Positions 30,901-58,281 of a DNA stretch of 64,000 nt are shown one piece after another; position 1 is the stretch's first letter; every line of letters starts with the position of its first letter. The DNA lies in the NCBI GenBank assembly GCA_002205965.3, contig NADL03000596.1, forward strand, positions 806,001 through 870,000, given 5' to 3'. A model generated the notes under the pieces. The model worked only from the letters and a program-made list of their open reading frames with translations, was not told the DNA's origin and did not search any database. A program made the translations under genes and the position numbers. The DNA comes from Kappaphycus alvarezii. Its lineage: Eukaryota > Rhodophyta > Florideophyceae > Gigartinales > Solieriaceae.

Positions 30901-31347
30901 AGACAACAAGCAGCCATAGAAGGCATCTGCAAAAACGCCCGCAGGTTCCTCAATGCAATCAGGGCGTGAAGCTGATAGGGAGAGCTCATAAACAGGCATA
31001 CCATATCCAGCAAGTCCAAGAGGTAAGAAAAATAGCCAAACCGTAAAAACGAGAACAATCCGTGCGGCTGTCTTAATGGTCTTGGTAGTCAGGGCCAGGA
31101 TACCCGAGAGGAATTCCTTTGTGGGGAGGGCAGACGGAGTGTTGGGCTGGTACAGTGGTTCAAAGCGGAAAGGATGGTTGCACAATTCGCAGCGAGTGGA
31201 ACCGGACTGAGAAAGCCAATTGACGAGGCAGTCCTCATGTGTGTACTTGATTGAGCCGGAACATCGACACGGATGAAACAGGGGTCTGCCTGGCTCATCG
31301 TCGCCTCGGCAGATTCGACATTCACGCTCTGTTTCGACCTCAGCCAT
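27959..31347 (-). CDS. Doa10/MARCH6/SUD1-type RING-CH E3 ubiquitin ligase (three apparent frameshifts)
   Basis: This family of ER-membrane E3 ligases ubiquitinates misfolded and short-lived ER and sterol-pathway proteins (ERAD-C). The ATG at 31347 starts MAEVETERECRICRGDD; the RING-CH has C10, C13, C27, C29, H37, C40, C53 and C56. An acidic linker and about 13 hydrophobic spans follow. LFEFGVFPLGCGWWLDICTL and LLREILRPELLWFLRNPDDP are hallmark Doa10 segments, and the C-terminus RDEKYLMGKQLYNFIE matches the family's conserved end. Total length of about 1,100 codons is normal. The reading changes frame near 30605 (extra base, TTT), 29885 (missing base, GGG) and 29690 (missing base, TT), all in homopolymers. 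No introns are needed. I judge the gene intact and the shifts probable sequence errors. Confidence 0.9.
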
Positions 31348-33001
31348 GCGGTCAGGCCTGCCAGGGGTTCATGGACAAGCCACGGCCCCAAACTGTGGAG
31401 AAGGAAGCTAGTTTTGATGAGAAAGAAGGTTGCGGAAAATGAAGAGGGCGAATGAAAGATACGGTAGAGGCGAGCGGGGGGGGGCAAGCTAATGATGTGA
31501 AGAGGTCACTGAGAGTTGTGGGCAAGGTTTTTCGTAGCACTTACGGTAAGAAAAGGTGAGGAATTATGTTGTGGGTGAGGACGGGGGCGTGGCAGCGGTG
31601 GTACACAATATGAAAGCAGGGGTTTCGTGACAAACGACGGGTATTGCTGGAGTTTGCAGCGAAAATACAAAAGTGAGTTATGCCAGCAAATCTGAGTTTT
31701 CAGTAAAAGCTTCCTTTTGTGCTTGAAATTGTTTTGAGCAAAACCCTGAGGCTGACGCGTCCTGGTGAAGAATCTGACCAAAAAACATAATCACCGGGGC
31801 ACATACGGGCGGCCACGGCCCGTATTATATGTTGCCAAGGTCCGCAAGTTAACCAATGGTCCTTGTCTACAAATAGATGAATTTTCGTACAAAAAAATAT
31901 CCTACTTCCACCATGCTCGTTCTCATCCGGACATTTCAAGGGGACCGGGTCCTGGCTGAAATCTGCGTTGGTCTCTGATTTTACAGTTTCCCAAAGTAAT
32001 TACAGTGTCAATTACTTTTGCATTACAGGTTAATTCAAACTTCTGTATATTTGCGAAATTTTATTTCAAATTAAGATATTCTCAAATACGAGTAGACACC
32101 GCCGTCGTCCTCGACGCTCAATCTCTCGTGTAACGTGTTGCACCGACAGGCCATGTCCATCACAAAATCCTATATAAACCGCATCCGACACCACATGCCA
32201 TCTCGCGCCTTTCCTGGCAAGTCTTTTTTCTAACCTTGAAAATTGTAATGACTTGTGATACACTTTCCAGTGCTGTGACGACCCGTCCATCTACTGACGT
32301 TCATGCCCTAGTCATCGGGACTAAGCTCGTATGTGTTTGCTGTGAGTCCCCAGAGATGGGTTTTGACTCCGGTGAGCGCTGCGGTGCTTAAGATCGTGAA
32401 GCACTTTGTGCTGGCGTTTGCGTCAAAAATTCGGATAGATATCTGAGCCTGGCAACTTTAACCTACTGTTCGGACATTGCCCTTTTTCTTCGCCACACTG
32501 CTTCATGGAATCGAGTGTCGACCAGCCCTGCATTTACTACCTCCATTCGATTATTCCAGCCCCGTTCTCATCTCAGGCTCATTCAGCATTGGGGTCGCAG
32601 GTACCCACCAGAGCCTGCGGGACAAACTCCCTCCATAAACAGAGACTTGGCCGCTGTGACACTTGAACCATTCCAGTCAGTTGAACTCTGATCTTTTTTC
32701 GAAACAGCCCATCCCTCATTCTTACAGTACAAACATCCTCGGTTTCCGTAGGCGCGCTCGCGAATGCGTTGTTTCGCTGCTCACGAAACTATTCCTTGCC
32801 TGCTACCAGTTGAGATCAGCCTTCCTATGTTGCACCAGCTGGTTTTCTTCCCGCCGAACATGAAAAATATCCGCAAGTAACGCGTCGAGTGCGGCTCCTC
32901 TGGCAAAGTCCCTCTGCTTGATCCCACTCCCACGACTTTCGTTGCGTGCGTTCTGCGCAAAATAACTGTTTCCCCCCACCGCCTGTTGTCTGCGACGCCG
33001 C
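31348..33001. other. Upstream interval of the Doa10-like gene
   Basis: Separates the ligase start from the 3' end of the deubiquitinase gene. A minus-strand ATG frame at 32066-32290 (74 codons, stop TAG directly before the ATG) and a plus-strand frame around 32463-32690 are protein-like in composition but unrecognised. Otherwise I see nothing definite. The ligase promoter should lie within about 31350-31700. Confidence 0.4.
32066..32290 (-). CDS. Possible small basic protein, unrecognised
   Basis: ATG at 32290, preceded in frame by TAG, begins MDGSSQHWKVYHKSLQFSRL and continues with SRLEKRLARKGARWHVVSD and LSVQHVTREIERRGRRR. The codon pattern is not obviously biased and no family is recognised. 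It could be a real short gene on the same strand as its neighbours, an upstream exon, or a chance frame. Confidence 0.25.
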   Translation of the reverse strand: MDGSSQHWKVYHKSLQFSRLEKRLARKGARWHVVSDAVYIGFCDGHGLSVQHVTREIERRGRRRCLLVFENILI

Positions 33002-34104
33002 TCACCTTCCTTTTCTCTTTGCAGCCCTCGAGCCCTTGTCACTATTGGCCACTCTCCTCTTGGCATCGTAAATCACAAGGTAAGCAAGTTTGCCATCCAA
33101 TGCCTTCTCCACGCTGCAGTCTCTCACTGTCCCATCATCTACATGCCACCATCTTCTACCGCCAATGCCAACCAAACCGTACCGACATTCGTCCCCACCT
33201 CCCACGACCGCATCGAAATGGCTTTGGCTTCCTACCCCTCCACGGTGCCTCACTACACACCTCAAACGATATCGCACTCCTCCCGGAAATTCGATCCACT
33301 CTTTCACTCCAACACCTCCTCTGCCCATCCCCGGGCCCCCTGCCCAATATACTGCCCTCTGCACATGAATCAGCAATACCTCTGCAAACCGTTTTACAGC
33401 TCTTACCCACACATGGCCTGTTATTCTGCCACAGTGTCCCTCACACCTCATCTGCACCCTCTCTCTGCCCATATATTGCCTTCTCACAAGCTCTCCTAAC
33501 CCCCATTCGCCATCCACCACCGGTAAAGTCATCATTACAGTTGTTTGCAATCTCTCCTCTCCAACAATACCACAGCGCTCGCACCTCTTCCACCCTGACA
33601 GCACACTCACAAACAAACTATCCCCCAAGTCAATCCCATCCTCCCCCCATTCCCGTCATCAACGCAAATGCCAGAACGCTTGGTCCCCTCCGTCCCCCAT
33701 TCCCCAGCCTCCAGTATATCCAACAGTCGTCCCATGGTCTCATGTGCATCCTGTGCATGTCTCGATTTCCATCCCATGCCCTCCAACACTTTCAAGAGCG
33801 GTCTCGGGTCCATAGAGCTTGCATTACCAGCAGACGACCTCGCGTGAATCAAATACGACCTCAAAACCGCAAACGCAGATCCCTCTACGCCTCTGCCATA
33901 CCGTTCCAGCCTGACACGTAAGGCCGGAATGGAGGCGAGAGCAGTAAGTGAGGCGCCAAGATGGCATGACTGTCCGCAGTTCCACAGGCCGCGCGGGCGG
34001 GGCTCTACCCAACGAGAGCGACTGGAATTGGACGGATAGGGTTTGAGGAGGGTGGTAATGGGGGTAGCTGCGGTGCAGACGCGGGGCAAAGAGAGATTGA
34101 TTTA
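33002..34104 (-). CDS. USP30/UBP27-like ubiquitin-specific protease (one frameshift, N-terminus unresolved)
   Basis: Ubiquitin C-terminal hydrolase (peptidase C19) that removes ubiquitin from proteins. The Cys box is RGLWNCGQSCHLGASLTALA (33940-34000; catalytic Cys in QSC, preceding Asn kept). QDAHETMGRLLDILE follows. After a one-base loss in a G run near 33625 the frame continues SLFVSVLSGWKRCERCG, AEVLLIHVQRA, IEFPGGVRYRLRCVVRHRGG, the His box SQSHFDAVV and WWHVDDGTV with the acidic residue, ending in a basic tail at 33002. The length is short, like USP30/UBP27. The main frame has a TAA at 34102-34104 and no ATG before the Cys box, so the true start lies upstream in another frame (ATG at 34174 or 34250) via an intron or another miscalled base. 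Earlier fungal or algal annotation of this gene could easily be missed. Confidence 0.8.
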
Positions 34105-34250
34105 GAGGACAGGGGGAGAAGTGGGGGGTAGGTATGGAAGTGCTCCGGATGGGGGCCGGCATATAGGCGAGCACGCGGAAATAGCTGTCGGGTGGGATTG
34201 GTGCGGATGGCGACGGGCCGCGTGGAGGGAGAGGGGGATGGATAGATCAA

Positions 34251-34458
34251 ATTGGCCTAGAAGCGAGGAACATATCCAGCTGGGCCATTCTGCCGTGCAG
34301 CACAATACTGTACCATAGAATTGGGCATTACAGGAAGCAGTTGTGCGGTGGGTTGTTTTATTACTTCGAAAAAAAGACAAAAGAAAGCATCAAAACGACG
34401 ATGATTGCCCAGCACCGCTTATTCCTTCGACTTTTCATCGATCAGACTTGTCGACTGC
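34251..34458. other. Short spacer between USP and TPI genes
   Basis: About 200 bp between the most upstream candidate USP start and the TPI stop, on the same strand. This tight tandem spacing is typical of a compact gene island. It must hold the TPI terminator and USP promoter; no motif stands out. Confidence 0.5.
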
Positions 34459-35219
<761 letters not shown>

Positions 35220-37211: not shown

Positions 37212-37712
37212 TGGTGCTGTATTAGCGATGCAGTATCGAGTGGTCGGCTGACGGTGGGAAAAATCGTACGCGAGTCGTGAAGTTCGTGAGGGAAAAATTG
37301 GGGTCTTTTAATGATTGAAAAATAAGTTCGCCTTGGTTCGTGAGTGCAAGCGGGGGTGGCAAAGGTAAGGGGGAAGTGAATGTACACGTACTGTGCTCGG
37401 ATGCACCTCGCGCTGTACTGTGTCCCCCATTGCCACTCTCCAGTCGTACACAGCCGACGTGGCTTCTAGAAGTTTCTGAGGACCAGAAGTGGTGCACTGT
37501 ACTGCAAGGGATTTGAGAATATTTACAGTATTACCTACGGGGGGCGACTATCTAGTATCGAAGAGGAGGTACGGTACCCTAGGAACCAAAAAAAGAATCA
37601 CGTCCCTCTCCAACTACCCATCTTCCTTCTCCATCCGCATTTCCCCTTACTGGCTCTCCACCCCTATCAAACTCGCGCACGACAGGCCACCCTACCCCTC
37701 GCGTCCTGAACA
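37212..37712 (+). repeat. Gypsy-1 5' LTR
   Basis: Nearly identical to 44224-44726. Starts TGGTGCTGTATTAGCG and ends CTGAACA; the first base of the gag ATG is the last A of the LTR. The left boundary is uncertain by about 15 bp because the purine-rich GGGAGAGGG upstream resembles the sequence preceding the 3' LTR. Confidence 0.85.
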
Positions 37713-38860
37713 TGGTACTTCTGTCGAATGGTAGAGACGCGTCTGCGGCCGCATCGACCCGTCTATTCCGTGGGAACTCCGACGCGAAGAGATTCGTTTT
37801 CTTCTTCGGACACTTCGCGATGCACAGTAAGCCCGAAGAAGGGAAGTCACTTGAACTTCTGTCTTACCTTAACGGCGAAGCGTTCGACTTCTTCTTCCAG
37901 ACGTTCACGGATGTTATCGTTAATCTCTTGCCGGATGGAAAGAACTATTCCATTGTCAAAGAGGCACTATGGGATAAGTTTCGAGACAATGATGAGCCGT
38001 ACGAAGTTATTCGTCGTCATATGGACGCTAAGCTCGATCCTAACCGTGTAATGGAATCGATTCTTAAAATGGATTCTCTCTTCGCTAAGGCGAAGTTCAA
38101 CGAGGAAGCCAAGTTTGGGCTTCACCGCAAGGCCGCGATGGTCCATTTGGATCTGGTTCCTATACTATTTATCGCAGTCCTAAGGATTTTCAGGTGATGA
38201 AGTCGATTATAGCTGATTTTGACGAAGTAGAAGGCGTTTCAGTCGGCGCAGAAGTACGTTGAATCTTCATCGATAGCCAGTCCCGCCGCGGGTATCGGAT
38301 CAGGTTTCATTCATGAAAAGAAGGAGACGGGGCCAGACAGCCCGGTCGTCTCTGACGAAAAAAAGGTACCAAGGTTTCTTGTTCGCACTAAACCTCGTGA
38401 ACCGGAAGTTGGAAGCAAGGTGGCCAGTCTCGTCACCGCCTTCGAAGATCTCTCCCTAATGATCAAGAAGCAGCAAAGGCAGCTGGAAACGATGAGAGGA
38501 ACCTCCTTTGGGGTCGGAAGGGCCTCCCAGGCTGGCCGTGATTGAGTCTGTTCATTTTGTCACAAGCAGGGCCATGCAGCTAACAGTTGCCCGACAATCC
38601 CCATCGCGACACCAGATGCTCCAAGTGCGGTAAGAAGGGGGACTCGGAAGCTACTTGCTGGAATCGCGCTAAAAAGGAACCGACCGGAGGTAAGGTTCCT
38701 GTGGCAATAGAGGGATCCAGTGAGGAGGAGTCTAACTATGAAGAAGACAAGGAGATCGTCTCCGTTGTTATTGGTTCGGACTCAGAAGAGTTCCTCCCAG
38801 TCGAACGTAACTCTGATGGGGAACCCTTCCGTAAATTGACAAGGAGCCCCGATTGAGGCG
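37712..38860 (+). pseudogene. gag: Gypsy-1 gag with zinc knuckles
   Basis: ATG at 37712 overlaps the LTR end and gives MVLLSNGRDASAAASTRLF. The capsid-like part is FFGHFAMHSKPEEGKSLELL, YLNGEAFDFFFQTF and YSIVKEALWDKF. A frameshift pair occupies about 38150-38265. The frame returns with KKETGPDSPVVSDEKKVPRF, KVASLVTAFEDLSLMIKKQQ and, after a TGA, the CCHC knuckle CSFCHKQGHAANSC (CX2CX4HX4C). A second knuckle, CSKCGKKGDSEATC, in a shifted frame has Asp in place of His. The protein ends acidic (SSEEESNYEEDKE). Structural protein for virus-like particles and RNA packaging. Confidence 0.8.
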
Positions 38861-41800
38861 ATTTTGAACCCTCGATCGGCCGGACCGCCTAACCACCGAG
38901 GATCTGTAGCTCCTCGGCAACCTGTGATATCTCGGAAGAAGAAGGTTGCCCCCGGAGGCAAAAAGTCAACGAGAAAGAAGACCAAGTAGAGATGGGCCAG
39001 GAAAGGGGACAGAAAAGGTGTCGAAGTTCGAGACATCTCCGAGTTCGTCCCTAAGTACGATGTCATAAATGATCTGGCGAATGCTTCTGCCGGCCTTTCA
39101 TTTGGCCAGCTCCTACGTGGTGGAGCTATACCGGCGCAAGGTGTCCTTAAGGAACTATTCAGTGGAGGAATCATAGGCGCCGTTAATGGGAAGGCGCAGG
39201 CCAGAAAGCGCTGTCTAAAGGTTGTGGAGGTGAACGTGTACGGAACTAAGGCGCATGCATTATGCGATACGACACCAGGCATTATCCACGCTGAATTCGC
39301 GGCGAAACTATCGGTAGAGACCGAGGTCGTCAACCATACGATCACTGTCGCTACGGGCGTGAAGTGCAAGGTGAATTCAATCTTGCGAAGTGCCCCTATT
39401 TCCTTCGGATGTCTCCTTATTTGCTTGGACTTCATCGTGGTCGAAGGATCTCCCTTCGAAGTTCTCATTAGCGACCCGACGATGGAAGCCTTGATGACCA
39501 CTCTAGACTATGGTACCAAAACAGTTACCCTCAAGCATGAGTCCAAAATCTCTGTGCTCGAATGGCTTCCCGAGTTCGCCCGTTTAACTGCTGAGTATCT
39601 TGTGAAAGAAGGGGAGGGAACGGATAGTGAAGACTTCACCTCCTCGACCTCAGCCGCGCCCTCCGAAGATGAAGGCTCCGATGAATCGAAAGATGAGGGA
39701 AACGAAGATCTACAGATCGTATTTGCGATTCAAGGCAGTTTAGAAGAATCAATGGCTGAGTTGAAACCCCTCTCTGTGGCAGAGGTGCTCTAGAAGAAGC
39801 TAGGGCTCCTACCCATCGCCACGAAGGAGGAGTTCAAAAAGCTTCTTTCTGAAGGCGACGTGATCGCCGAATCCTTGTTCGACCTTCGTCTTTCTAGCGT
39901 TCCTATAGAACATTCGTTCGGACTCGCTGACGACAAGCCTATAAACCATAGAGGGCGTCGCCTAGCGCCTAAGCAGAACCAGCTCGTCTGCGAGGAGTTG
40001 GATAAGATGTTGGAAGCCGGGATAATTCGGCCCGCATCATCTGCCTGGTCCTTTCCGGTTGTTATCGCTACTAAGAAGGACGGGAACCCCCGCTTCTGCG
40101 TCGACTACCAGACCCTCAACCAAAAAATGAAGGGCGGTCGTTGGGCCTTGCCGAAAATAGAGGGGATTTTTAACTCCCTCCAAGGCGCGACAGTGTTTAC
40201 CTCTTTGGATCTGTTCAGCAGATATTGGCAGGTCCGCCTCGAGGAGACCTGTAAAGAGAAGACGAAGTTCGTGTGTCGGTTTGAGACTTACCAATTCAAC
40301 GTTATGTCGTTTGGACTTATGAACGCTCTCTCGACGTTTCAGCGGATGATGGACCATCTCCTAGCAGATATGGACTTCGCTCGCGTCTACTTGGACGACG
40401 ACGTGGTCTTCCCTACAAACTTGGAAAAGCACTTGGAGCCCGTTTCAGCTGTCATAAGTGGCGTCGCAAAATACGGATTGAAGCTCAAGCTGGCTAAATG
40501 CCACCTCGCGCAAGGACGGATATGCCTTCTGGGCCATGTAGTTGACGAGCACGGGGTACGAGTGGATCAGGGCAAGGTCGAGGTACTTCAAGCAATCCCA
40601 AGCCCCGTCAGCGTTACGCAGGTCCGCAGTTTCCTCGGGCTCGCAGGATACTATAGGAGGTTTATTAAGGACTTTGCGAGTAAGGCTGCCACTTTGCACG
40701 CAGTGACTTCGACAAAAAGGAGATTCGCGTGGGGGGAAGCGGAAGAAGAATATTTTCGCACATTGAAGGAAGCGTTGACCTCCCCACCTGTTCTAGCGTT
40801 TGCTGACTTTGAAAATTCTTGCATCGTCGAAACGTGTGCATCTTCTTCGGCAATTGGCGCCTTTTTATCACAAAAACAACTGCATGGGAAAATACATTTA
40901 GTCCAATACGCAAGCCGGACAATGAGCACGGCAGAGAAAAGCTACTCTGTCTGCGAGAGGGAGGCGTTGGCAGTGGTTTTTGGTTTACGGAAGTTTCGTG
41001 TTTAACTTTTGTCGAGCCACCTTTTTGGTTTCATTACCGACCACCGGTCGCTAAAGGAAGCCTTTGTGCGCATGGACATACATTGGCGGCTAGCTCGTTG
41101 GCCTGACTTCCTCGAAGAATATGACTACGTTAATCGTTACCGACCAGGGAAGATGAATGGGTCAGCAGGTGTACTGTCGCGATTAGCGATAGAAAAAGAG
41201 GTTCAATCTGACCAGGATGAGGGGGATCTCCTATTTTCAGTAGATCCCACTGAGGTGGCGGTCGACGATGGTCTGGAACTGTATCTCACTTTGGTCCGCC
41301 AGTACCTTTCCATGGAAGACACCTCCTATGCCCCGTCGAAAGAGAGATTGAAAGCAAGGCGTGCAGCCAAGAACTTCATGGTCTGGAACGGAAATTTGTT
41401 CCGTCATACGAAAAGTGGCCCGAGGATAATTCCGGGAAAGGCAGTGCGTGCCGAAATACTGCGTTTTCTCCATGACAGTGTGGGCCACTGGGATGCGCGT
41501 ACTACCCTTAAGTTTACGCAGGATCGATTCTGGTGGCCAAGAATGGTCGGAGCTGTCTACTAATACGTGCGTTCCTGCGACGCGTGTCAGCGAATGCAAA
41601 AGCTCCCGCAGTACGTGCCGATCTTGGTTGTGCCGGTGGGAGGACTGTTCTCATCCTTCTCGATTGATTTTGCAGGCCCATTGCAGCGATCCAGAGAAGG
41701 CTTCCGTTACATATTGGCCTGTGTCGAACATCTAACCGGATGTCCAATCGCCATGCCTACATGCGATGCGAAGGCGGCTACAGTTAAAAGGTTTGTGGAA

Positions 41801-42480
41801 GAAGATATAATAATCCTATCTGTTCCTTCTAAGGAGATCGAGAGCGATAACAGAACATGTTTCGCCGCTGCTTCCCTCGTTCTTTTCACGAAGGACCATG
41901 GGATCAAGTGGCGCACAGTCATGGCGAATGCCCCCATGTCCAACGGAAGAGCGGAAAGGATGGTTCGCACCTTGAAGTCTGGAATTGGAAGGATTATCCG
42001 TGATGGATAAGATTGGGCTGAAGACCTCCATAGGTGTGTGTTCGGATATCGTTGTAGGCCTGGGCCGGGCAGAGTAGCCCCCTTTGAGCTGCTGTACGGG
42101 GTCAAACCTCGCGTGATGGGTACTGACCGTACTAATCCGCAGCAAGCCCAGGAGTCCGGGGATCGACCGATAGAGACCCTATCCATAGTCATTCTCCAGC
42201 CAATAAGGGCGCTGGGTACAGAAAGGGCCAGAGAAAACGAACCGGAAGTCGTCCCTTACGCAGATGGGGACCTGGTGTTGGTTGCTTACGGCATGGCCTT
42301 CCATGGCCCAAAATGGCCGCCGCTTCAATCGCGTTACTTCGGCCCCTGTGAAGTCGTACGGGCAGCGCACCCGCGCTATGTACTACGTTCGCCGCACTGG
42401 AGGTTCTCATGACAGGCCATTTACGCTCGTCGCCTTCGCAACTACTACTTGCTCCCCAAGCATCTAAAACGACCGGAGAA
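38860..42480 (+). pseudogene. pol: Gypsy-1 pol: protease, RT, RNase H, integrase
   Basis: All domains lie in one frame. The protease has ALCDTTPGIIHAEF (DTGA altered to DTTP) and EVLISDPTMEALM. RT: SAWSFPVVIATKKDGNPRFC, WALPKIEGIFNSLQ, VFTSLDLFSRYWQVRL (motif A), SFGLMNALSTFQRMM, RVYLDDDVVF (motif C), FLGLAGYYRRFIKDFA. RNase H: EREALAVVFGLRKFRV and, past a stop, FGFITDHRSLKEAF. Integrase: HH-CC region (FLHDSVGHWDARTTL; SCDACQR), SIDFAGPL, ESDNRTCF, NGRAERM with the D, D and E residues, then GPCEVVRAAHPRYVL. Stops at 39791 (TAG), 41003, 41561 and 42008 (TAA) are mostly explained by Gln codons changed by one C-to-T step. Not functional as written, but close to intact. Confidence 0.9.
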
Positions 42481-42744: not shown

Positions 42745-43359
42745 CTACGTTATACGGCGGACATCATCGATACACCTGAAATCCGGGGGGGTACCGATGC
42801 CCGCCCATATTCTTAGAGACTCCGGGAACAGATGCATCTCGAACCGTTCGGGGCTGTCCAGCAGGGTTGGGTGTAGCGTACGCAAGTCAACGCAGATTGC
42901 GTGCTTCAACCCTCCAAGAGAGTGTATGCGGAGAACGTAGACGCCGGCAGTACTTGGATGAAGGTGGAGACGAGAGAGCCACGCGAAGTTGAAATCATGG
43001 ACGCGCCTTGTACCCGTTTCACTGCTGCCAGCTTCCCTCAGGTGATCCAGAGAGACTGGTATAGACGGAAGCTTGCGGATCAACTTCCACACCTCCGGAA
43101 GTGCGAATGGACGTCGGGTATCCTTTCTCGACTCGACGATGCAAGAATTCTTGGTTAGCTGTCTTCCACAAAGAGAGACCCGCTGGACAACCGCAAAGAA
43201 TGGAGACTCCATTAGCGAGAGCGACGCGCATGCACTGGTCCGTCCAATCATTAATGGGCACAATGGCTGGCTGAGGTAGTACTGGCGGGCGTATGGGAAG
43301 GCGGTCGAGCCATAGCGACGTTCACCTCCTTTCGGCGACCCGGGTGCTACCGACACCAA
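42745..43359 (-). pseudogene. Gypsy-1 antisense ORF 2 (possible continuation of ORF 1)
   Basis: A minus-strand frame of 204 codons ending at 42745, with no ATG near its start. It includes SPFFAVVQRVSLCGRQLTKN, RRPFALPEVWKLIRKLPSIP, FNFAWLSRLHLHPSTAGVYV and RTLHPTLLDSPERFEMHLFP, a regular, globular-looking composition. Between the end of antisense ORF 1 (43432) and this frame a third frame carries VHWWYVEGLHEESVPSISDF, so one or two single-base shifts would link all three into a protein of about 430 residues. No family is recognised. The sense strand here has only short, low-quality frames. Confidence 0.5.
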
Positions 43360-43431: not shown

Positions 43432-44043
43432 TCAACGTACCACCAATGGACGCCACTCCATGGTGGACGGAAGTATAGAGTGAGAAGTCTCGTCTTCTTC
43501 GGATCTTGCGTCACATAACCCGGCCTCTTCGTTACCATTGCCGGTAGAAAGCCAAATACGCGAGATTACCCAATCTGGATCTGCATCCAGGGGTCCGTAG
43601 TCTGTGTTGTCGTTCACAGACTTGGATCTCCCGATTCGTGCGATGAGCTTCTTGTCAATAGGCTTTCCGCCCTCTAAAACGAATTGCACGATGTGTTTTC
43701 CCAAGACCCGTTCCAGCTCTCCGCTCGACCTTTCCACTGAAATTCCCTCCGAGATACTTACTCGTATGTTCCCGTCTCCTAAACTCACCAACCTGTCCAC
43801 ATCGGTGCGACTGAAGAGGTCCAACAGTCTCGACGTCCAGTGCCGATTCTGTGGAGCGCAAATATCGATTTCGCCTTCAGCAAAAAGAGCCTTTTCCGAT
43901 GAATCATGAGACGTCAATACACCTTCGTTGCGGCGGAAGATGCGCGAGCTGTCCGCCGCCCTCCGCGCTGCGAGCCTCGCCAGTTGGTCCGGGGGTGCTT
44001 TACCCGCACTCGATTTGTTCGCGGTCTGCTTTGTCCCAGCCAT
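43432..44043 (-). CDS. Gypsy-1 antisense ORF 1: protein with histone H3 tail-like N-terminus
   Basis: ATG at 44043 is preceded directly by an in-frame TAG, so the start is fixed. The first residues MAGTKQTANKSSAGKAP align without gaps to the H3 tail, and QLARLAARRAA continues the match; 19 of the first 29 tail positions are identical. Equivalents of T3, K4, Q5, T6, A7, K9, S10, G13, K14, A15 and P16 are kept, while R2, R8, R17, K18, K23 and K27 are replaced. After about residue 32 there is no resemblance to the histone fold; the remaining 170 residues (for example RHWTSRLLDLFSRTDVDRLV, GELERVLGKHIVQFVLEGGK, DADPDWVISRIWLSTGNG) are unrecognised. It lies 180 bp inside the 3' LTR on the antisense strand. 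A role in mimicking H3 for chromatin readers or writers is inference. Confidence 0.7.
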   Translation of the reverse strand: MAGTKQTANKSSAGKAPPDQLARLAARRAADSSRIFRRNEGVLTSHDSSEKALFAEGEIDICAPQNRHWTSRLLDLFSRTDVDRLVSLGDGNIRVSISEGISVERSSGELERVLGKHIVQFVLEGGKPIDKKLIARIGRSKSVNDNTDYGPLDADPDWVISRIWLSTGNGNEEAGLCDARSEEDETSHSILPSTMEWRPLVVR

Positions 44044-44223: not shown

Positions 44224-44726
44224 TGTTCTGTATTATTAGCGATGCAGTATCGAGTGGTCGGCTGACGGTGGGAAAAATCGTATGCGAGTCGTGAAGTTCG
44301 TGAGGGAAAAATTGGGGTCTTTTAATGATTGAAAAATAAGTTCGCCTTGGTTCGTGAGTGCAAGCGGGGGTGGCAAAGGTAAGGGGGAAGTGAATGTACA
44401 CGTACTGTGCTCGGATGCACCTCGCGCTGTACTGTGTCCCCCATTGCCACTCTCCAGCCGTACACAGCCGACGTGGCTTCTAGAAGTTTCTGAGGACCAG
44501 AAGTGGTGCACTGTACTGCAAGGGATTTGAGAATATTTACAGTATTACCTACGGGGGGCGACTATCTAGTATCGAAGAGGAGGTACGGTACCCTAGGAAC
44601 CAAAAAAAGAATCACGTCCCTCTCCAACTACCCATCTTCCTTCTCCATCCGCATTTCCCCTTACTGGCCCTCCACCCCTATCAAACTCGCGCACGACAGG
44701 CCAACATACCCCTCGCGCCCTCAACA
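44224..44726 (+). repeat. Gypsy-1 3' LTR
   Basis: Preceded by the purine-rich GTAGAGAGAGGGT (likely polypurine tract); starts TGTTCTGTATTATTAGCG and ends CTCAACA. About 2% different from the 5' LTR, including a 3-bp TTA difference near the start. Confidence 0.88.
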
Positions 44727-46762: not shown

Positions 46763-48968
46763 ATGACCCTCCAAGATCGCATCTACCACCAAATCGGTGG
46801 GTTTCGCCAACCGCAATGTGCGCAGCCCGCCTTTCTGTCCGTATACAAAGATTGTACGGACTACAAGCGGCAGTATAATGCTCGATTTTCTTTCTCAGCA
46901 GGCTTGGACGGTGACATTCTAACGTCTAACGTCTCTGACGGTCATTTTCCATCAGGTGAACCCGTACGAGCATTCGTTTGTGAGTCTTCGCAACTGTATA
47001 TTTCAGAACGAAGGAGCAAGTAACTGTCGGTTGGTGATAAATGCGGACAAACAAACGTGCAGCGGAAGAGCACGTACGTCGTCATAATGGTTCATCATGC
47101 TCCGAGGTAGCTGCGATTATCCCTTGGAATGTCGATGGCCCCATAGCGAAAAGAGATGTAGTCGTTCAACACCGGCTTGATACTAAGACGTCAGGGAATG
47201 GACAGGGGGCCAGGGTGCGAACGATTGATGTGAGCCACAGGTCTAACGACCCATTGTTTTATGTCCTCCTGTTCCCTACTGGTCCAGACGGGTGGCATAT
47301 GGAAACGAATCAGCCTTCATCTGCTGCGGGTGCCTCACCCGAGAATGACCGCCGAACAAAGGTATCACCAGCGGCTTTCCACTCCTGGCACCTTTTTCCG
47401 AGACAAGATGAGTTCAGTACCAGTTTTCACGGCAAGAGACTCTTTCAGAAGTACCTGGTGGATCAGTTGTGCAAGTTTGAGTCGGAACGGCTGCTGTACC
47501 TGCGTCTCAATCAAGATAAACTCCGAGCCCCGGATCATACTGATCTCAATGATCAGCTGGGTGACCCGACTGTGTACATGACGGGGCTGCAGAGTTAAGA
47601 GCCTGTCACCTCATCGTTCTACACTCCACCTACATTGGCGTCGACCGCTATATGAGGCAGCAGCTTCAAGACTTGATTGCCATTTCGAACAAGTTGGGTC
47701 ACCGGGATATCTTTCTCACGGTCACGTGTAATCCCAACTGGCCGGAGATCACCGAGTCGCGTCTTCCACATCAAATCTCCCAAGACAGGCCTGATATCAC
47801 CGCCCGGGTGTTCAAGATAAAGTTGAAGACTACATGGAATTAGTGTTGGAGCAGGAGCTCTGCGGGAAAGTGATGGCGCACGTTCGCGTGATTGAGTTTC
47901 AGAAGAGGGGCCTGCCTCACGCACACATCATCCTTTTCCCGGACAGAGTCTCCAAACAACATCCCAGGAATCCGTAGAACGTTGAAAAGCTTATTTCTGC
48001 GCAGCTACCGTCAGAGTCACAACGACGTATACGCGATTTGGTCTTGAAGCAAATGATCCATGGGCCGTGCGAGACACAGAATCCCTCTTTTCCTTGCATG
48101 GGGGGGCAATTCCGGTTCCAAGCATCTTTCCAAAAGACTTTAGGATGAGCACCGGTATCCAAGAGGAGCAATATTATGTCCTCTACAGTCTAACATCACC
48201 GTAATATGGCGGTGACACAACCACTAAGCGATGCCGAGTCGGGTCCCGGTGCTTAGACCTCGAGGTCAACAGCTCCTGGGTAGTACCATACAAATCGAAG
48301 ATATCGGCTCTGTTTGAGTGCCACGTAAACATAGAGCTGTTCATATCGCGTCATGATAGTATCAAGTATCTCTTCAAGTATGTTTGCAATGGGCAGGACC
48401 GCATTACAATGGAACTGATTGAGGAAGGAGAAACAGTGGATGAAATAGGATACTTTCAGGATGCAGGATACGCTGAAGCTTCCGAGGCAGCATTGCGTCT
48501 GTTCATGTTCGAAATCGTACACAAGAAACCTTCAGTAGTAAGGCTTTCAGTGCATCTCCCGGGCCACCATGCAGTGTACTCTCGAGATGTTCAGAAGCAT
48601 GCAGCTGCGAATCGCCAACGGCCTGGGACAACACTCACCGAATGATTTTCTGCCAAGCCCTCTACGAGGATGCAAGGCACCTTCCGTATGATGATTATCC
48701 CAAGTATTTCATTTGGGATAAGTCATCCAATCCCAGGCGTCGAAGGAGAGACCCCGGTCCTAGCAGTACTGAGACTGAGCCAAAGCTATACTGGAAACCG
48801 CGAAAAAGATTATCCAAGCGTTTCGTCCAAGTACAAGGCCCGGCAGGCGTACAGGAGATACTACCCACGACTTCTCCGGTACAGGTGAACATGTCGTCGG
48901 TCGCATGTATACCGTCAGCCCAAGGCAGGGCTAAAAGTATTACCTTCGCGTCCTACTCACCCAGGTAG
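46763..48968 (+). pseudogene. Helitron_like_N and Rep (HUH) domain
   Basis: MTLQDRIYHQIGGFRQPQCA and PAFLSVYKDCTDYKRQYNAR continue Helitron_like_N. Antisense-free reading continues with SNDPLFYVLLFPTGPDGWHM, RLFQKYLVDQLCKFESERLL and GHRDIFLTVTCNPNWPEI (47690-47750). The Rep motif MAHVRVIEFQKRGLPHAHII contains the metal-binding HAH (47870-47930). KYLFKYVCNGQDRITMELIE and GYFQDAGYAEASEAALRLF (48350-48510) form the tyrosine region of Rep. A frame near 48642-48760 reads ARHLPYDDYPKYFIWDKSS. Rep nicks and joins single strands for rolling-circle transposition. At least six interruptions. Confidence 0.82.
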
Positions 48969-51129: not shown

Positions 51130-51424
51130 TGTGAAAGTCAAATGTCCACTGAAGCAATGCCATTGACGGATCACGTTAGTTGGTAGCTTGATTCCGATGT
51201 TAGTTTTACTGATACGTTAAGGCCGCTATCATTTTCAAATGTGCAGCGTCGTCAGAATAAGAGCGTGTTGCTCCGGGTGGAGTTCTCATGTTCCACCTGG
51301 TAAGCTTCTTGTTTTGTCTCGTACATCGACACTTCTCTCCCGCACTTTTCGCCGACGCAACGAGCGAACAAGCGAGAGCAACAGGCCGGTCGAAGACCTG
51401 TGATCGCCAGACAGAGCGACAACA
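51130..51424 (+). repeat. Copia-2 5' LTR
   Basis: 295 bp, TG...CA. Shares with the 3' LTR all but about 11 bases. No convincing tRNA primer-binding site follows directly. Confidence 0.95.
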
Positions 51425-53142
51425 CTAATTAGTAACGTTGCTGTTTACGTTGCTTTCTTGCAGAACAAGCTCGTCAAAGACTCACCCCCACTCCGCCCCC
51501 GATCCCTTGCCCCATTCTCTCCCTTCACTACCTCCTCTCACCTCCCCACCCTTGCCCTTTCTTCACTCTAATCCCTTTCCTCCCTCCCCCGATCTCTCAT
51601 CCAAATCCCTTTACCCCGACCCCTTGCCTTATTCCATTCCCCCCTGATCCCTTGCCCCACTCCCCCATTCCCTACCTTCCTATTCCCTACCCCCCAGATC
51701 CCTTTCCCCGATCCACCCCAACAGCAACAGATTGTCGTTGTGAAGATTGTGACTGTGCGCCCCGCCCCGCTGTCGGTGTGATTGTGCACCCCCCGTTGGT
51801 TTGAATGTGACTGTGAATGCCCCTCGTTGGTTTGAGTGCGCACCCCCCCGTTGCTGTGAGTGTGCAACCACCCCCCGTCCGGGCTGCAGTAGTGGTGTCT
51901 TTTTCCCGTCTCTGTTCGAGAAGTGTTGTCGGGATTGAAGATTTTCTCTCTTTTTTTTATACAACGTCTCTGAAGTGGTCTGCACTCGGTCTTGTGCCCG
52001 CTCACCGTCAAAGGAATTTTAGTGCATTTCGTTTAAACACACTTTGGCAAGCTAAGCGAGTGTTCGGCGTTGTCCTGCTTTTGTTCCGTGCGTGGTTAGT
52101 GGTTCTGCTGTCGCGAGAAGATTTTTTATTCACTTTTATTGTTTCCCTTCCACTTTCGTGAACAAGTGTCGAGACGAGCGGCATTGACCACACTAAATAC
52201 GGGCTACGAACAGGGACATTGGGCGCACACGGAAGGGGAGTATTACAGATCGTTGGTGCTCGTTTTTATTGGTTCGTGATGATATTGAGGGGTCTCGAGC
52301 AGCTTTTAGCTGACGAGATTGTCCGATGCTCGCCGAAATCCTGGTCTTGCGTGGGGTTGTTTGGTTTTGGAAGTAACGCAATGGTCGAAGACTGCGCGCG
52401 ACCCGGTGTATCGCGGTAGGCTGGAGCTGTTAATGCCCTTCGCACCAAAGGGTGCAGTTATTCAGGGACTACCTCTCGGCGCCACATCCTGTGAGCTGCC
52501 CGCCTGCGGTTCGAATTGCCCGGGCAAGAGGGACATCCCAGGGAAAGTGAACCTTACGTCTAAACACCCACTCATCCGCGTACTCCCATTTAGGTCCTGG
52601 GAGGGGATCGCACCTTCTCAAGACTGAAACGCCCCCACTAAACGCCGTACTGCTTCGCATATTGCTTGGGTTCCAGGGCGGTTTACCGCTTTACCGGTAC
52701 ATTCAACTGTCAGTGTGACTTCTGCGTGCGTAACCTTCAAGGTCTGTGGTGTTTATTGATTGGGTAACTAATAGGTTGTTATTACTTTCGGCCTAGTCGT
52801 TGCAGTTGTTGGCGAAAGTCCCGGTAGATCTCCTATACGGTAGGGACCGGGTACGGCTATCTTTGATAGCTCCGGGGATAACCGAACGGAGTGAAAACCC
52901 CTTCGCACTGGGCCTGTGCGAAGTTAGACTGCAGGAAAGGGCTCCCTCTCCGGAGTGGGGCGACTCCGTGCTGAGTGTCAATACCCGAACCCTCCACAAG
53001 TAGGGGACTGGTCGCCAAGGATCTGAGTACCCTGAACCCTCCGCCAGTAGGGGACTGGCCGCCCAGGGTCGGAGTACTCTTCTAACTTTTCAGACTCAAG
53101 ATCAAGATTGAGTAAAGTTTGGACACACAGGGATAAGCAGTT
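51425..53142 (+). other. Copia-2 long non-coding leader
   Basis: 1.7 kb between LTR and gag without recognisable coding sequence. It starts with a very pyrimidine-rich tract (51480-51720, CCCC/TCCC runs). Next are two to three imperfect units of about 32 bp with GTGANTGTG and CCCCNCGTTGGTTTGA (51765-51880). It ends with a 47-bp tandem pair (52987-53080). It could hold packaging or internal-initiation signals, or a decayed secondary insertion. Confidence 0.5.
52987..53080 (+). repeat. 47-bp tandem repeat pair in the Copia-2 leader
   Basis: Units 52987-53033 and 53034-53080 share GAACCCTCC and AGTAGGGGACTGG and differ at several positions. They lie about 65 bp upstream of the gag frame. Confidence 0.85.
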
Positions 53143-53955
53143 TTGGGGCGTCAATTCACGGAAAAGGGTCTCCCCCATACGCAGCCTTCGTCGTCCACGG
53201 ACGCGAGTGCCGACATTATGTCAAACGGGGGAGAGGATGGGAATGGAGGAGGGGATGAGTCGCCCTCATTCATGCGACTGATCAGCGATAGAGAACTTGG
53301 CTCCCTAACGAGTTCGCAAAAGGGGTTCATTATCTATATTCGGACACTCGATCCTTCTCTTAATGGTCAGCAGCTAAAGGCAATAGTCGCCGATTTGTTC
53401 CCTCCTGCAAGCCTGTTTGCGAAAGAGATTTGTGACCTTCCGTCAGTTTGGGTCAAGTTGCGCAGTTTCCTCAATGCTCGTGGCGCAAGTCTGCAGCAAC
53501 AATCGTCTCGAAGGGTAATCATGACTCTTGCTAAGGAGTTATACGACGACATTAGTGAACGAGATGCCGCAGTTCAAATGGCTCAGCTGATTTTCGAAGG
53601 TGGAAGACGCGTTAGGAGTGACCTGCAGAGTGCTGCGTCAATTTCATCACCGACCACCGAATCTCAAGGGAACGCGAGCAATTCCGAATACAATAGCGGT
53701 AGCAGGCTTGTCCACGGCATTGCCATGTGGCTTACAGACGCAGACAAGAAATTCTCGGGTGATCTGGGCGAGTGCTGGATGGATTACGTTGACGAATACT
53801 CTCAAGTGGCAAAGGACCACGGGCTCAACCCACAACAGAAGCTGCAGTACTTGCACATTCTGTTTTCAAAGGATGCGAAGCGGTTACATCTTGCACAAGT
53901 CGAGACGTACGCGCAGCCGTTCCAACAGGCAGTAGAGATGATTGACCAGGAGTAA
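53143..53955 (+). CDS. gag: Copia-2 Gag N-terminal part
   Basis: An open frame of 270 codons; the first ATG in a plausible context is at 53218 (MSNGGEDGNGGGDESPSFM). It contains RELGSLTSSQKGFIIYIRTL, QQLKAIVADLFPPASLFAKE, a helical central part (RVIMTLAKELYDDISERDAA) and FSGDLGECWMDYVDEYSQVA with KLQYLHILFSKDAKRLHLAQ, resembling copia capsid sequences that follow the W-D/E-Y pattern. It ends at a TAA (53953). The next part of gag continues in another frame (LRQTRVKNYLKNLRVSKFV-like) toward 54210. Capsid function is inferred from position and pattern. Confidence 0.7.
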   Translation: MGRQFTEKGLPHTQPSSSTDASADIMSNGGEDGNGGGDESPSFMRLISDRELGSLTSSQKGFIIYIRTLDPSLNGQQLKAIVADLFPPASLFAKEICDLPSVWVKLRSFLNARGASLQQQSSRRVIMTLAKELYDDISERDAAVQMAQLIFEGGRRVRSDLQSAASISSPTTESQGNASNSEYNSGSRLVHGIAMWLTDADKKFSGDLGECWMDYVDEYSQVAKDHGLNPQQKLQYLHILFSKDAKRLHLAQVETYAQPFQQAVEMIDQE

Positions 53956-54209
53956 AACTACCCCGTTAGGCAGACCCGAGTCAAGAACTACCTCAAAAAC
54001 CTGAGAGTGTCTAAATTCGTTAAAGGTGGCCTCGATGTATCACCTGCTTTGGCTAAAGTGTACAAAATGATTAGTAAACTCTCACGACAAGTGCCGCACT
54101 CTCATCGGGGTGACCAACAAAAGATCAAGTTCCGGAGGAATGCGGCAATCGGTACACTTGGTCTCGCGAGCCCCTGAGTCGAGTCTGTACCCAGAACCTG
54201 TCCTTTCAG

Positions 54210-55133
54210 ATGCCGTACGGCGGGCTCGAAGCCGCACTTCAGTTGTACAAGGAGGCAAAGCTGGCCATCGCCCGGGACAATGCACTTGGCCGTAAAACAC
54301 CGCAAGCTGATGAGCACATTGGTATCAACTTCGCTGGGCAAGGCCGGTATAGGTTTGACCCCAAGCACATGCGCCAACGGCGAAAAGGAAGGACACGCTT
54401 TAAAGTACAGCCCCTCGATAAGGCCGATTTCTTTAATTGCGGAGATCCTAATCACATGCTCAAGGATTATCGTAAGCCCTTAAATGCTGCAAAGGCTGCA
54501 GCTAAGAAGCTCGAGTATTATAAAAAGAAGGATTCTATGAAGCATGCTGTGCACTTCGTCCTCGCCGAGGTCTGCGAACAACTCGACTACGCGTCCGAAT
54601 CCGGGGATGAGCAAGACGTTGCCGACGATGTAGGAATCTTCCAAGCAATACTGCAGGGCGAACTGAAATCGCAAAGCTCTGACGCATCAGAGACGCCTGC
54701 TGCAGGACCCATAGACGTACATCCAGAGATCGATTCCGATCCAAACGAGATCTTCGTCATGAAAACTACATGGGATTGCCATACATCTGAATATTTCGAA
54801 GGAGGATGTGTGGACTCTGGTGCTCAGAAGACGGTAATCGGTATTTCACAAGCAAAGGCTTACTTCGCGCTACTGAACACGACGCTATATGATGTCGTCA
54901 AAGGAAAGAAGTTGATATTTACGTTTGGAGACACGATCAACATCAGAATCCCGGTCTCTGAAAACTTCTCCCTTTCATCTACTGAGCACGTTGTTGATGT
55001 GGGTGTACCGCTGCTTCTCGGCCTCGACTTGTTAAGGCAAGCTCGTCTTGTTCTTGATTTCGCCGACGACTTCGTGCGATCAAAAACTGATGGATGGACG
55101 CTTCCCTTAGTGCGCAATCGGGGACACGTCTAA
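54210..55133 (+). pseudogene. pol: Copia-2 Gag end and aspartic protease
   Basis: Begins in gag (GLEAALQLYKEAKLAIARD, NFAGQGRYRFDPKHM) with a degraded zinc knuckle, FNCGDPNHMLKDY, in which the first and last Cys are lost. The protease follows: GGCVDSGAQKTVIGISQAKA with the catalytic DSGA (54805-54860), LIFTFGDTINIRIPVSENF (flap) and VDVGVPLLLGLDLLRQARLV, the typical retropepsin end. Cleaves the Gag-Pol polyprotein. The stop at 55131-55133 precedes the integrase frame. Confidence 0.82.
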
Positions 55134-56384
55134 ATCGAGTGGGCTGTGAACGTGTTCTTTACCTCTGCGGAATTGAGAAAGGGGCACAGGCATTTTCATC
55201 ACCCCATCCAGGTAAGCTGTACGCTGTTATGCGAAGAGCAGATCCCGAATCTATCTCTCTGGATTTTTTGGCAGACCTCGAAAATATCTCTGCCACTTGT
55301 GAGGTTTGCCAGCGTGAAGCAGAAGGTCCGCATAGTTTCAGGGTTTCGCTGCCCCATGGAGAGTGTGTGTTCAACCGAACTGTGTCCCTGGACTTGATGA
55401 AGCTAGAGAAGAATACCGTGCTGCACATTGTAGACAAAGACAATAAGTTCGGCGCCGCGTGTTTCCTTAATGGTGAGTCGATGATGGACACATGGAATGC
55501 TTTTATGAGAATCTTGGTTTCCACGTACATAGGTTTTCCCGACAGCGTCGCTGTTGACCAGGGGCCACAGTTCGATTCACTAGAGTGGAAGAATTTGTTA
55601 CAGGCCGCTGTTATATCAGAGCAACCCTCTGGCGTGGAGAGTCACAACGCGCTGGGCGTAGGCGAACGTTATCATTCATATCTTAGTCGAGTGTATAACA
55701 AGGTCGTTGCTTATGACCCGCGTATCGAGCATAGTCTCGAGTTGCAACTGGCAACTAAAGAGACGAACGAAAGTGCCGGACCGTCAGGACTTGTGCCAAC
55801 ACTACTCGTATTTGTAGTACTTCCTCGAATCCCGCTCACGCTAAAGGACCTTCCTGATTACAACAAGCGTATGAAAAGCTATGTCAGATGCACGAAAGGA
55901 GATGACAAAAATCTCTCACAATGCCAGGCTTCGAACTGCGTTGCACGGCAACGTACCCGCTGCGGCCGAATCTTCATATGTTGTTGGTGATGAAGTAATC
56001 ATGTACAGGGAGAAACCCGTCGGCAAGTGGGTTGGCCCATACTTCATCCGAAACACCGAGGGTAAAATGATGACTTTGGATACCGGTGATCGGCACATTC
56101 GAGGGTCCATAGATAAGTTTAAATTGTACAAAGAGCGATCACGGAACGATGAAGTTGAACAGGGGGATATTCATCCCATGCCTGCTCCGGCGAATGCGGA
56201 AGATATTGTTGGTGACCAGCCGACAAACGGCGGTGGTGACTACCTCTTGGATGAACCCAACAGTGTGACGGCTAACGCTCGCTCCCAGGAACCTAAGCGA
56301 TACGAGGATAAGAATGAGGACACCAACAATGAGTACCCTGATATTCTAGCGGGTATCCAGCAGGCAGAGAGAGATCGCAAATGA
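55094..56384 (+). pseudogene. pol: Copia-2 integrase
   Basis: The frame 55094-55990 has the pre-integrase segment (HPGKLYAVMRRADPES; CEVCQREAEGPHSFRVSLP, one CxxC). The core then has SLDLMKLEKNTVLHIVDKD (first Asp), VAVDQGPQFDSLEWKNLL (second Asp) and SGVESHNALGVGERYHSYL (Glu), followed by TNESAGPSGLVPTLLVF. After a shift the frame 55881-56384 gives the C-terminal VVGDEVIMYREKPVGKWVGP and GKMMTLDTGDRHIRGSIDKF, then an acidic linker DEPNSVTANARSQEPKRYED. Inserts the cDNA into host DNA. One shift is the main damage. Confidence 0.88.
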
Positions 56385-56389
56385 ATATC

Positions 56390-57958
56390 CGACGCCCTCG
56401 ACGATACGCCATTCAACATTGCGTACATCGGTGTACACATCACAGAGGTACTTGACGCGAATGATGCGAGGAAGAATAACAGTAAGTTCAGAGCGGCAAA
56501 GCTACGAGAGATCACAGGGCTAAAGGAGCGTAAGGTATGGAAGGTTATCCCGAAGTCGGAAGTTCCAAAAAACGTCAACGTACTCGGCGGACGTTTTGTT
56601 CTTACAATCAAGAACATTGGAACTCAGGACGAGATGGAGAAGGCGCTCTACATCGCATAAGGGTACAGTGATAAGGATAAACCCTACATGGTTCATGATA
56701 TTGCAAACTTGCGGTCTTCCTCAATCCATCTCATACTTTCTTGCAGCGATTAAGGCTTTCCGCATATTTTCACATGACGTTAACCACGCTTATTTTCAGA
56801 ACAAAGACAACATGAGCAGGAGTATTTTTATCCTACCAAAGCGCGAGGACTTAGAAATTATTGGTATAACTGATGAGGAGATATTAGAACTCCTACGTCC
56901 GCTCTATGTTACATGCGATGTCGGTGACTACTGGGGTGTGACCGCACACTTTCATGTTGAAGAGGATCTTGGTATGAAACAGACAGTCGGGGATCCCGCG
57001 CTGTACCTCAAGATATCGGATGGAGAACTCGAAGGAGTGGTAGGCATCTATGTTGATGACAACATCCATGTAGGGAACCGCAACTTCGAGGAGACTAATG
57101 AGGAAAGCCTCAAGCGATTTGACTCTAAGCCACGTGTCTACGATAACTTTGATTTTTTCGGAACTGTTAACAAAAAAACCAAGCGGGGAGAGTTTGCCGT
57201 AACGCAAGAGCGACATGACCGTCGTATTTCAAAGGCAGCGAGAGACTGCACGTTCCAGGAATTTCGGAAGTTGAGAGCAAGCCTTTCATGGCTCGCAAAC
57301 ACGCCTCCGGAACTGTGCTGCCTCATTAACAGGGCTGCACAAGTAACAAGGGAGACATTCTCGAAGGAGAAAATCAAGGAATTTAATAAGGCAGTGAAGA
57401 TAGCGAATAGAAGGGCAGTTAGTGGGTTGACCTCCAGCGCTCTTGAATCCTCCTCCCTACGTTTCAATATGTATGCAGATGCTGCTTTTGCGTCGAATGA
57501 CGATCTATTATCTCAACTCGGGCACATTGCTATCTGACGAAACAGGGAAGTGCCACATCCTACACTACTCGAGTAGGAAGTCGAAACGGGTTGTTCGATT
57601 GATCATGGGTGGCGAGGTACATGCGTTTGCGGACGGATTTGATAGGTCTTTCACCATGAAGAAGGATCTTGAGATGCTATTGGGTATGCCTATCCCGCTT
57701 TATTGCTTTACCGACTCTAAAGAGCTTTTCGACTCCGTCACCAAAGGTCAGCAAACGACTGAGAAGAGACTAATGATCGATATCATTGCTGCTCGTGAAT
57801 CATACAAGAGCAAGGGAATCACTCAGATCGGTTTAATTGGTTCTGCTACCAACCCAGCTGATGGTCTGTCTAAGGTTAATGACAATGGATCACTGCTAGA
57901 TCTCATGGATTCAGGTGTAGACAAATGCCCAGTAGAGCAGTGGATTATTCGACCGTAA
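56390..57958 (+). pseudogene. pol: Copia-2 reverse transcriptase and RNase H
   Basis: The start KFRAAKLREITGLKERKVWK and NVLGGRFVLTIKNIGTQD is interrupted by a TAA at 56657 and a shift. The main frame 56596-57537 contains AIKAFRIFSHDVNHAYFQ (motif A), FILPKREDLEIIGITDEEIL, RPLYVTCDVGDYW, GVVGIYVDDNIHVGN (YVDD), FDFFGTVNKKTKRGEF and RKLRASLSWLANTPPELCC, then MYADAAFASNDDLLSQLGHI. RNase H finishes in frame 57443-57958 with PLYCFTDSKELFDSVTKG, IDIIAARESYKSKGI and TNPADGLSKVNDNGSLLDLM. The stop lies 28 bp before the 3' LTR. Nearly intact. Confidence 0.88.
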
Positions 57959-57986
57959 CATGCTCCCAACTTGAAAAATGCCGGAG

Positions 57987-58281
57987 TGTGAAAGTCAAAT
58001 GTCCACTGAAGCAATGCCATTGACGGATCATGGTAGTTGGTAGCTTGATGCCGATGTTAGTTTTACTGATACGTTAAGGCCGCTATCATTTTCAAATGTG
58101 CAGCGTCGTCAGAATAAGAGCGTGTTGCTCCGGGTGGAGTTCTCATGTTCCACCTGGTAAGCTTCTTGTTTTGTCTCGTACATCGACACTTCTCGCCCGC
58201 CCTTTTCGCCGACGGTACGAGCGGACAAGCGAGAGCAACAGGCCGGTCGAAGACCTGCGATCGCGAGACAGAGCAACAACA
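57987..58281 (+). repeat. Copia-2 3' LTR
   Basis: 295 bp, starts TGTGAAAGTC after TTGAAAAATGCCGGAG and ends CAACAACA. Confidence 0.95.

Follow-up and report, generated by a model that had tools for sequence, protein, structure and literature searches.

An antisense open reading frame with a histone H3-like N-terminus in a Ty3/Gypsy element of Kappaphycus alvarezii

The window analyzed here, a stretch of 64,000 nucleotides of Kappaphycus alvarezii DNA, contains a Ty3/Gypsy element (E1) in which an antisense open reading frame (P0001), located between pol and the 3' LTR, opens with a segment closely resembling the N-terminal tail of histone H3. The best explanation, to which we assign a probability of about 0.52, is that a Ty3/Gypsy lineage carries an antisense accessory gene whose N-terminus derives from H3 and would most probably act as a mimic of the tail. 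The features of E1 on which the argument rests are the following.

37218-37712, plus strand: 5' LTR of E1 (TG...CA), aligned to the 3' LTR
37712-42409, plus strand: gag-pol frame of E1, with 12 in-frame stops in 1566 codons
42745-43359, minus strand: second open stretch, 204 codons, open in the same antisense frame as P0001
43432-44043, minus strand: P0001, antisense accessory open reading frame with the H3-like N-terminus (203 aa, 612 bp including the stop codon)
43951-44043, minus strand: H3-tail-like segment of E1, codons 1-31 of P0001 (20/31 identical to H3, BLOSUM62 score 89)
44229-44726, plus strand: 3' LTR of E1, aligned to the 5' LTR

The preliminary description of this DNA had counted 19 identities to the first 29 residues of H3 in ungapped register, including T3, K4, T6, K9, S10, and K14, and our recount gave the same figure (20/30 at positions 0-29 when Met is numbered 0). 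The H3 residues kept are A1, T3, K4, Q5, T6, A7, K9, S10, G13, K14, A15, P16, Q19, L20, A21, A24, A25, R26, and A29, while R2, R8, T11, G12, R17, K18, T22, K23, K27 (replaced by R), S28, and P30 are altered. The match is anchored at the ATG start codon and an in-frame TAG lies immediately 5' of it, both as originally reported. P0001 thus has what defines a histone-tail mimic at the sequence level, an H3-tail sequence in a non-histone protein, here with 20/31 identities in register from the start codon. The R, K, S, and T positions of H3 are kept at 7 of 16 sites in E1 vs 12 of 14 for the remaining positions, so the modifiable positions are not favored. Beyond the tail the protein is not histone, as had been claimed: there are 0/50 identities to H3 over positions 30-79, a histone fold is absent downstream of the tail, and a Pfam search with P0001 found no family at E up to 1. 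We rejected the possibility of a spliced H3 gene of the host, given the lack of a fold downstream and the LTRs on both sides. Single-sequence AlphaFold2 modeling of P0001 gave a mean pLDDT of 32.3 and the model is unusable.

As a coding frame, P0001 has the top total codon score among the six frames over 43435-44043, and its GC pattern by codon position resembles that of pol; it does not come first when only synonymous usage is considered (-0.044 vs 0.000 in the other two antisense frames). The length of the ORF is weak evidence, since shuffling the region 2000 times produced an antisense ATG ORF of at least 203 codons in 12 cases. We also rejected the idea that the region was originally sense-coding, the longest sense ATG ORF having 122 codons vs 203 antisense. 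The second open stretch (42745-43359, minus strand) is separated from P0001 by 72 bases holding four further stops. It shows a small advantage in codon score (-0.094 vs -0.101), and sliding frames hint weakly at frameshifts between the two stretches, which are possibly the remains of a single gene of some 430 codons that has decayed or been frameshifted. As with P0001, Pfam gave nothing for it at E up to 1, including TRP28 (PF04195), and neither NCBIfam nor PDB gave a match at E up to 5; for the body of the antisense gene the best NCBIfam E-value was 0.087 (12.2 bits, cut-off 286). It contains a G-G-x-x-H-A-x-x-V-D...L-D-S motif, which we take to be reminiscent of papain-like cysteine peptidase domains, with no profile or structure in support.

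The assignment of the host element, also part of the preliminary description, is borne out by a reverse transcriptase domain, RNase H, the zinc-binding domain of integrase, and an LTR pair. E1 is a Ty3/Gypsy element by its domain order (RT, RNase H, integrase) together with the LTRs. Pfam RVT_1, RT_RNaseH_2, and RT_RNaseH lie within 39860-41005 (plus strand) and Integrase_H2C2 within 41009-41563; RVT_1, RT_RNaseH_2, and Integrase_H2C2 exceed the cut-off and rve (41567-42010) is slightly under it at 31.9 bits (cut-off 32.6). P0001 runs antisense between the end of the pol frame (42409) and the beginning of the 3' LTR (44229), from which its start codon is separated by 185 bases. The two LTRs are identical in 499 of 511 alignment columns (~98%, 3 gap columns), the alignment taking in 13 bases that precede the LTR and the ends being placed by eye from TG/CA; no target-site duplication was evident in the inspected flanks. 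Similar LTRs with a broken interior would fit a non-autonomous lineage mobilized in trans, or alternatively gene conversion of the LTRs may account for ~98% identity despite the 12 stops.

The surroundings of E1 hold further repeats and genes. A Helitron_like_N domain is found at 47041-47598, about 2.3 kb past the end of E1, and 51130-58281 is probably a further LTR element, with direct repeats at 51130-51424 and 57987-58281 that are 96% identical. An inverted repeat of ~808 bases (99%) pairs 59442-60246 with 61726-62530. On the other side, 27959-35025 (minus strand) contains what are probably genes of the host, one for a MARCHF6-like ubiquitin ligase (RINGv, MARCHF6_C) and one for triosephosphate isomerase, and a 72-base unit is present as a tandem pair, 97% identical, at 25584-25729. 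The ligase gene, the Helitron domain, and the reverse-transcriptase elements mark the host as a eukaryote. Rfam families and tRNAs were absent from the 64-kb window.

The likeness of the P0001 start to H3 is, as judged from the sequence, very probably real. It had been called hard to explain by chance, and the simulations agree: in 1,000,000 shuffles of P0001's own 30 post-Met residues the best score was 14/30 compared to the 19 observed, and 500 shuffled H3 tails reached at most 47 in the window, against 89 at P0001 and 61 at a second site. When H3 residues 1-31 were scored at 127,814 31-codon positions on both strands, the BLOSUM62 score was 89 for P0001, 61 for the second site (minus strand, 19604), and 28 for the next position; of the 733 frames of 31 codons that begin with ATG in the window, the runner-up to P0001 had 6/30 H3 matches. 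Control queries with H4, H2A, H2B, and reversed H3 scored 28-34. In a tblastn search of the window, H3 matched the P0001 site at 39.7 bits (E 4.6e-7) when composition was left uncorrected; correction lowered this to 30.0 bits (E 0.001) and confined the match to residues 1-20. The best match in 100 dinucleotide-shuffled windows had 26.2 bits. A phmmer comparison of P0001 to PDB H3 chains was weaker (22.4 bits at best, E 0.0009), and the PDB matches listed (60 of 126) are all confined to residues 1-35.

The second site, which is absent from the preliminary description, belongs to E2, an old, decayed Gypsy element with the following features.

13167-13326, plus strand: 5' LTR-like repeat of E2, matching 19964-20123
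15787-17673, plus strand: decayed pol remnant of E2, RT to integrase (tblastx to E1 pol, linked-group E 7.6e-41)
19512-19604, minus strand: H3-tail-like segment of E2 (13/31 identical to H3, start codon no longer ATG)
19964-20123, plus strand: 3' LTR-like repeat of E2, matching 13167-13326

That an old, diverged relative in the same window bears a tail trace at the same place is what makes the H3 likeness of P0001 very probably real. The layout is as in E1: the tail is antisense, 359 bases from the 3' LTR-like repeat, and the repeats are spaced 6.8 kb apart vs 7.0 kb in E1. By tblastn the E2 tail has 28.9 bits (26.2 bits in the best of the 100 shuffled windows) and E 0.002 in the window both with and without composition correction, the match running to residue 37 while the count of identities covers 31 codons. 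A frameshift-aware alignment of the H3 tail to the E2 antisense region scored 63, the highest score among 100 block shuffles being 44. K9 is lost in this decayed copy. The limits of E2 rest on ~160 bp of alignable LTR-like sequence, 114 of 161 columns being identical (71%; 73.5% over 151 columns, E 2.7e-14), and its pol is 37% identical to that of E1 at the amino-acid level over 382 codons, a comparison that takes in five of six plus-strand stretches and leaves out one of 21 codons. Copies of the family lacking the ORF had been put forward as the evidence that would count against the preliminary claim; in E2, the single relative detectable in the window, a trace of the tail is present at the expected place and the ORF is not intact.

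Several other repeats lie in or near E2. One copy of a 287-base direct repeat (93%; 9002-9288 and 18209-18495) is probably a later insertion, since it sits inside E2 between the integrase and the tail site. A direct repeat of ~330 bases (86%; 1687-2019 and 12758-13084) ends just before E2 and is possibly another LTR pair. Part of the E1 LTR is matched at 86% by an isolated 43-base piece at 21918-21960, about 1.8 kb beyond E2; this piece was considered as the 3' LTR of E2 and dropped for the 13167/19964 repeat pair.

Comparison of the two tails gives some insight into their history. Codon positions 1, 2, and 3 match at 14, 18, and 6 of 31 sites in the tail (45/58/19%) and at 53, 63, and 30% in pol (382 codons); the tail alignment covers 31 codons only and was built via H3, a procedure that raises the match at positions 1 and 2. 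Amino-acid identity is 32% in the tail vs 37% in pol, and the same codon is used for 1 of 10 shared tail residues vs 54 of 140 in pol. With third codon positions at the random level and first and second positions conserved, as in pol, the sequences suggest past protein-level constraint on the tail before the copies died. The 10 residues common to E1 and E2 are all those of H3 (T3, K4, Q5, S10, A15, P16, L20, A24, A25, and R26); 23 of 31 H3 residues persist in one or the other element, and no non-H3 residue is common to both. As E1 keeps 20 H3 residues and E2 13, the overlap of 10 is near the 8.4 expected if they were independent. This overlap and the absence of common non-H3 residues mean that a common ancestral tail is not directly demonstrated: either the common ancestor was near H3, or the tails were separately taken from or pulled to H3. 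The direct E1 vs E2 tail score is marginal (39 vs a shuffle maximum of 38).

Outside the tail the two antisense regions show no detectable similarity, which makes the tail the best-kept part of the antisense gene. Against the E2 antisense region the whole P0001 was not significant (its score was reached by 11/100 block shuffles), and in frameshift-aware alignments the P0001 body (residues 34-203) and the second antisense stretch were at chance level, with 54/100 and 28/100 block shuffles reaching the score, respectively. In E1 the match to H3 stops near residue 30, and in E2 it has ended by about residue 37.

Searches for homologues outside the window were negative. P0001 was compared to 5.8 billion proteins (sources including nr), yielding 881 candidates and none at E up to 1; a 432-residue antisense frame with X at the stops was compared to the same collection, and of 7996 candidates scored none was found at E up to 10. 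With a query of the canonical H3 tail plus the E1 frame, scored on residues 1-40, 1687 of 1739 candidates were at E up to 10, and because the matches listed (the best 120 of 1687) carry PF00125, this query is uninformative on non-histone proteins. In viral contigs, searches with P0001, the RT, and the RT alignment gave no relative, and neither did the RT query in phage records. Two H3-tail DNA patterns found 0 and 2 stretches in viral contigs, the latter attributed to chance (one lies inside a larger unrelated protein and the frame of the other is stop-rich).

Antisense ORFs in this position have precedents. Plant Ty3/Gypsy elements carry antisense ORFs that lie between pol and the 3' LTR (aORF-3R) and are described as being of unknown function; examples are Grande gene23, RIRE2, Retand (TRP28), and PvRetro13, found in diverged families, with ORFs of >600 bp in all Retand clusters and a regulatory role proposed for aORFs (PMC7264820, PMC11963269). 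The product of the Grande antisense gene is a nuclear protein (PMC7264820). P0001 resembles aORF-3R in orientation, in its place between pol and the 3' LTR, and in size (>600 bp). It differs in its H3 tail, as none is described for the plant aORFs and the word "histone" does not occur in the accessible text of PMC7264820, and unlike Retand, neither antisense stretch of E1 contains TRP28 (Pfam PF04195, E up to 1). Capture of H3 by transposable elements is also known: hAT DNA transposons of fungi carry and multiply H3-derived coding sequence, an H3-like gene with a globular domain in Pyrenophora (H3L; PMC3538342) and an H3 gene in Pseudocercospora fijiensis and relatives (PMC6710886). E1 likewise carries H3-derived coding sequence, but it has the tail only, fused to a non-histone body and antisense in an LTR retrotransposon; lacking a histone fold and having LTRs and pol, it is not a case of hAT-type H3 transduplication.

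Two further comparisons concern mimicry and accessory genes in general. The viral H3-tail mimics influenza A NS1 (ARSK) and SARS-CoV-2 ORF8 (ARKS), which act on host chromatin factors, have four-residue motifs, compared to a stretch of about 30 in P0001 that is in register with H3 from the start codon on, and the words "transposon" and "retrotransposon" do not occur in the part available of the histone-mimicry review that covers them (PMC10208167). LTR retrotransposons of bdelloid rotifers have accessory ORF3s beyond gag and pol (DEDDy, GDSL) that are like P0001 in being extra acquired ORFs; these encode enzyme domains, and "histone" does not occur in the source as far as it was accessible (PMC5408684). 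The novelty is therefore narrower than first claimed, since antisense genes located between pol and the 3' LTR (PMC7264820, PMC11963269) and hAT-borne H3 (PMC3538342, PMC6710886) were already known; what stands is that an H3 tail by itself forms the N-terminus of an antisense gene in a Gypsy element. The components are each known, and the combination, an H3 tail in a retrotransposon accessory gene, had no report among the literature matches listed, which cover open-licence PMC papers.

The mechanism that we favor would start from an accessory gene lying antisense between pol and the 3' LTR, with a protein that begins with a segment derived from H3 residues 1 to ~30 and continues into a non-histone body, which would evolve faster than the tail. 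In the simplest view, which presumes a shared origin, the tail would be older than the split of the two families, whose pol identity is now about 37%. Antisense transcription and then translation would produce the accessory protein. Removal of the initiator Met, which we predict from Ala at position 2, would leave a free H3-like N-terminus (in E1 with A1, T3-K4-Q5-T6, K9-S10, and K14), and this end of the protein could be presented to the host's binders and modifiers of the H3 tail. As a result, silencing factors might be diverted, or the accessory protein might be tethered to chromatin-modifying complexes that favor expression or integration. This explanation is supported by the fact that both score outliers are antisense and just inside a Gypsy 3' LTR, and by the antisense genes known in this position, one of which encodes a nuclear protein (PMC7264820). 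It is weakened by the broken state of both E1 and E2, the restriction to one window, the lack of a homologue in the protein collection searched, and synonymous usage that does not favor the ORF frame. A stricter version, in which the lineage has long kept under selection a near-complete H3 tail that engages H3K4/K9/S10 readers and writers and thereby blunts silencing or steers integration, can be put forward only tentatively, at somewhat less than even odds; strict mimicry is disfavored by the alteration of R2, R8, R17, K18, K23, and K27 in E1 and by the loss of K9 and the ATG in E2.

The main rival to mimicry, which we consider somewhat unlikely, is that an ancestor captured the 5' end of a host H3 gene as a leader or passenger: the fragment would have supplied a start codon and a basic nuclear-targeting leader and been retained for this use or for none, H3 readers being irrelevant to it. 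Such a history agrees with the poor retention of modifiable positions in E1 (7/16 vs 12/14), with the documented capture of host genes by transposable elements, H3 by hAT among them (PMC3538342, PMC6710886), and with the number of base changes from an H3 coding sequence, at least 16 in E1 and at least 25 in E2 over 31 codons. Against it speaks the codon pattern shared with pol, in which third positions are random between E1 and E2 and first and second positions conserved, the shared residues being those of H3 only; a neutral copy of such age would hardly be expected to stay recognizable.

Two independent captures of H3 5' ends or H3 pseudogene fragments by two Gypsy elements, with no ancestral accessory gene, are improbable. 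The star pattern around H3, in which no non-H3 residue is common to E1 and E2 and the overlap is near independence, would be accounted for in this way, as would a remainder of the antisense gene that cannot be aligned between them, but the two tails share the same strand, the same place inside the 3' LTR, and a similar end of the match, and the E2 tail is old, as its LTR-like repeats differ by about 26-29%. Still less probable is a role of the tail within the element's own protein instead of with host readers, where it might form an arm that binds nucleic acid or a pro-peptide cleaved from a downstream domain. The peptidase-like motif of the second stretch, for which no profile hit was obtained, and proteolytic clipping of the H3 tail, reported in PMC13198579, point in this direction; neither open stretch has a family match, the second has no PDB match, the listed PDB matches of P0001 stay within the tail region, and the AlphaFold2 model is of no use here. 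Coincidence, a basic, Ala-rich N-terminus resembling H3 by composition, would draw on a peptide rich in Ala, Lys, and Arg, the low phmmer score, and composition-corrected tblastn E-values of only 0.001 (E1) and 0.002 (E2), and it is already very unlikely given the shuffling results and the corresponding positions of the two sites.

Silencing of LTR retrotransposons works largely via H3-tail marks. Antisense accessory genes of Gypsy elements have been recognized for years, and we know of no agreed function for them. If the H3-tail N-terminus is indeed conserved, it would provide a concrete, testable function for one Gypsy antisense accessory gene. Histone mimicry would then reach beyond viruses and pathogen effectors and include resident retrotransposons, with a counterpart to viral histone mimicry that is far longer than the viral motifs cited above.
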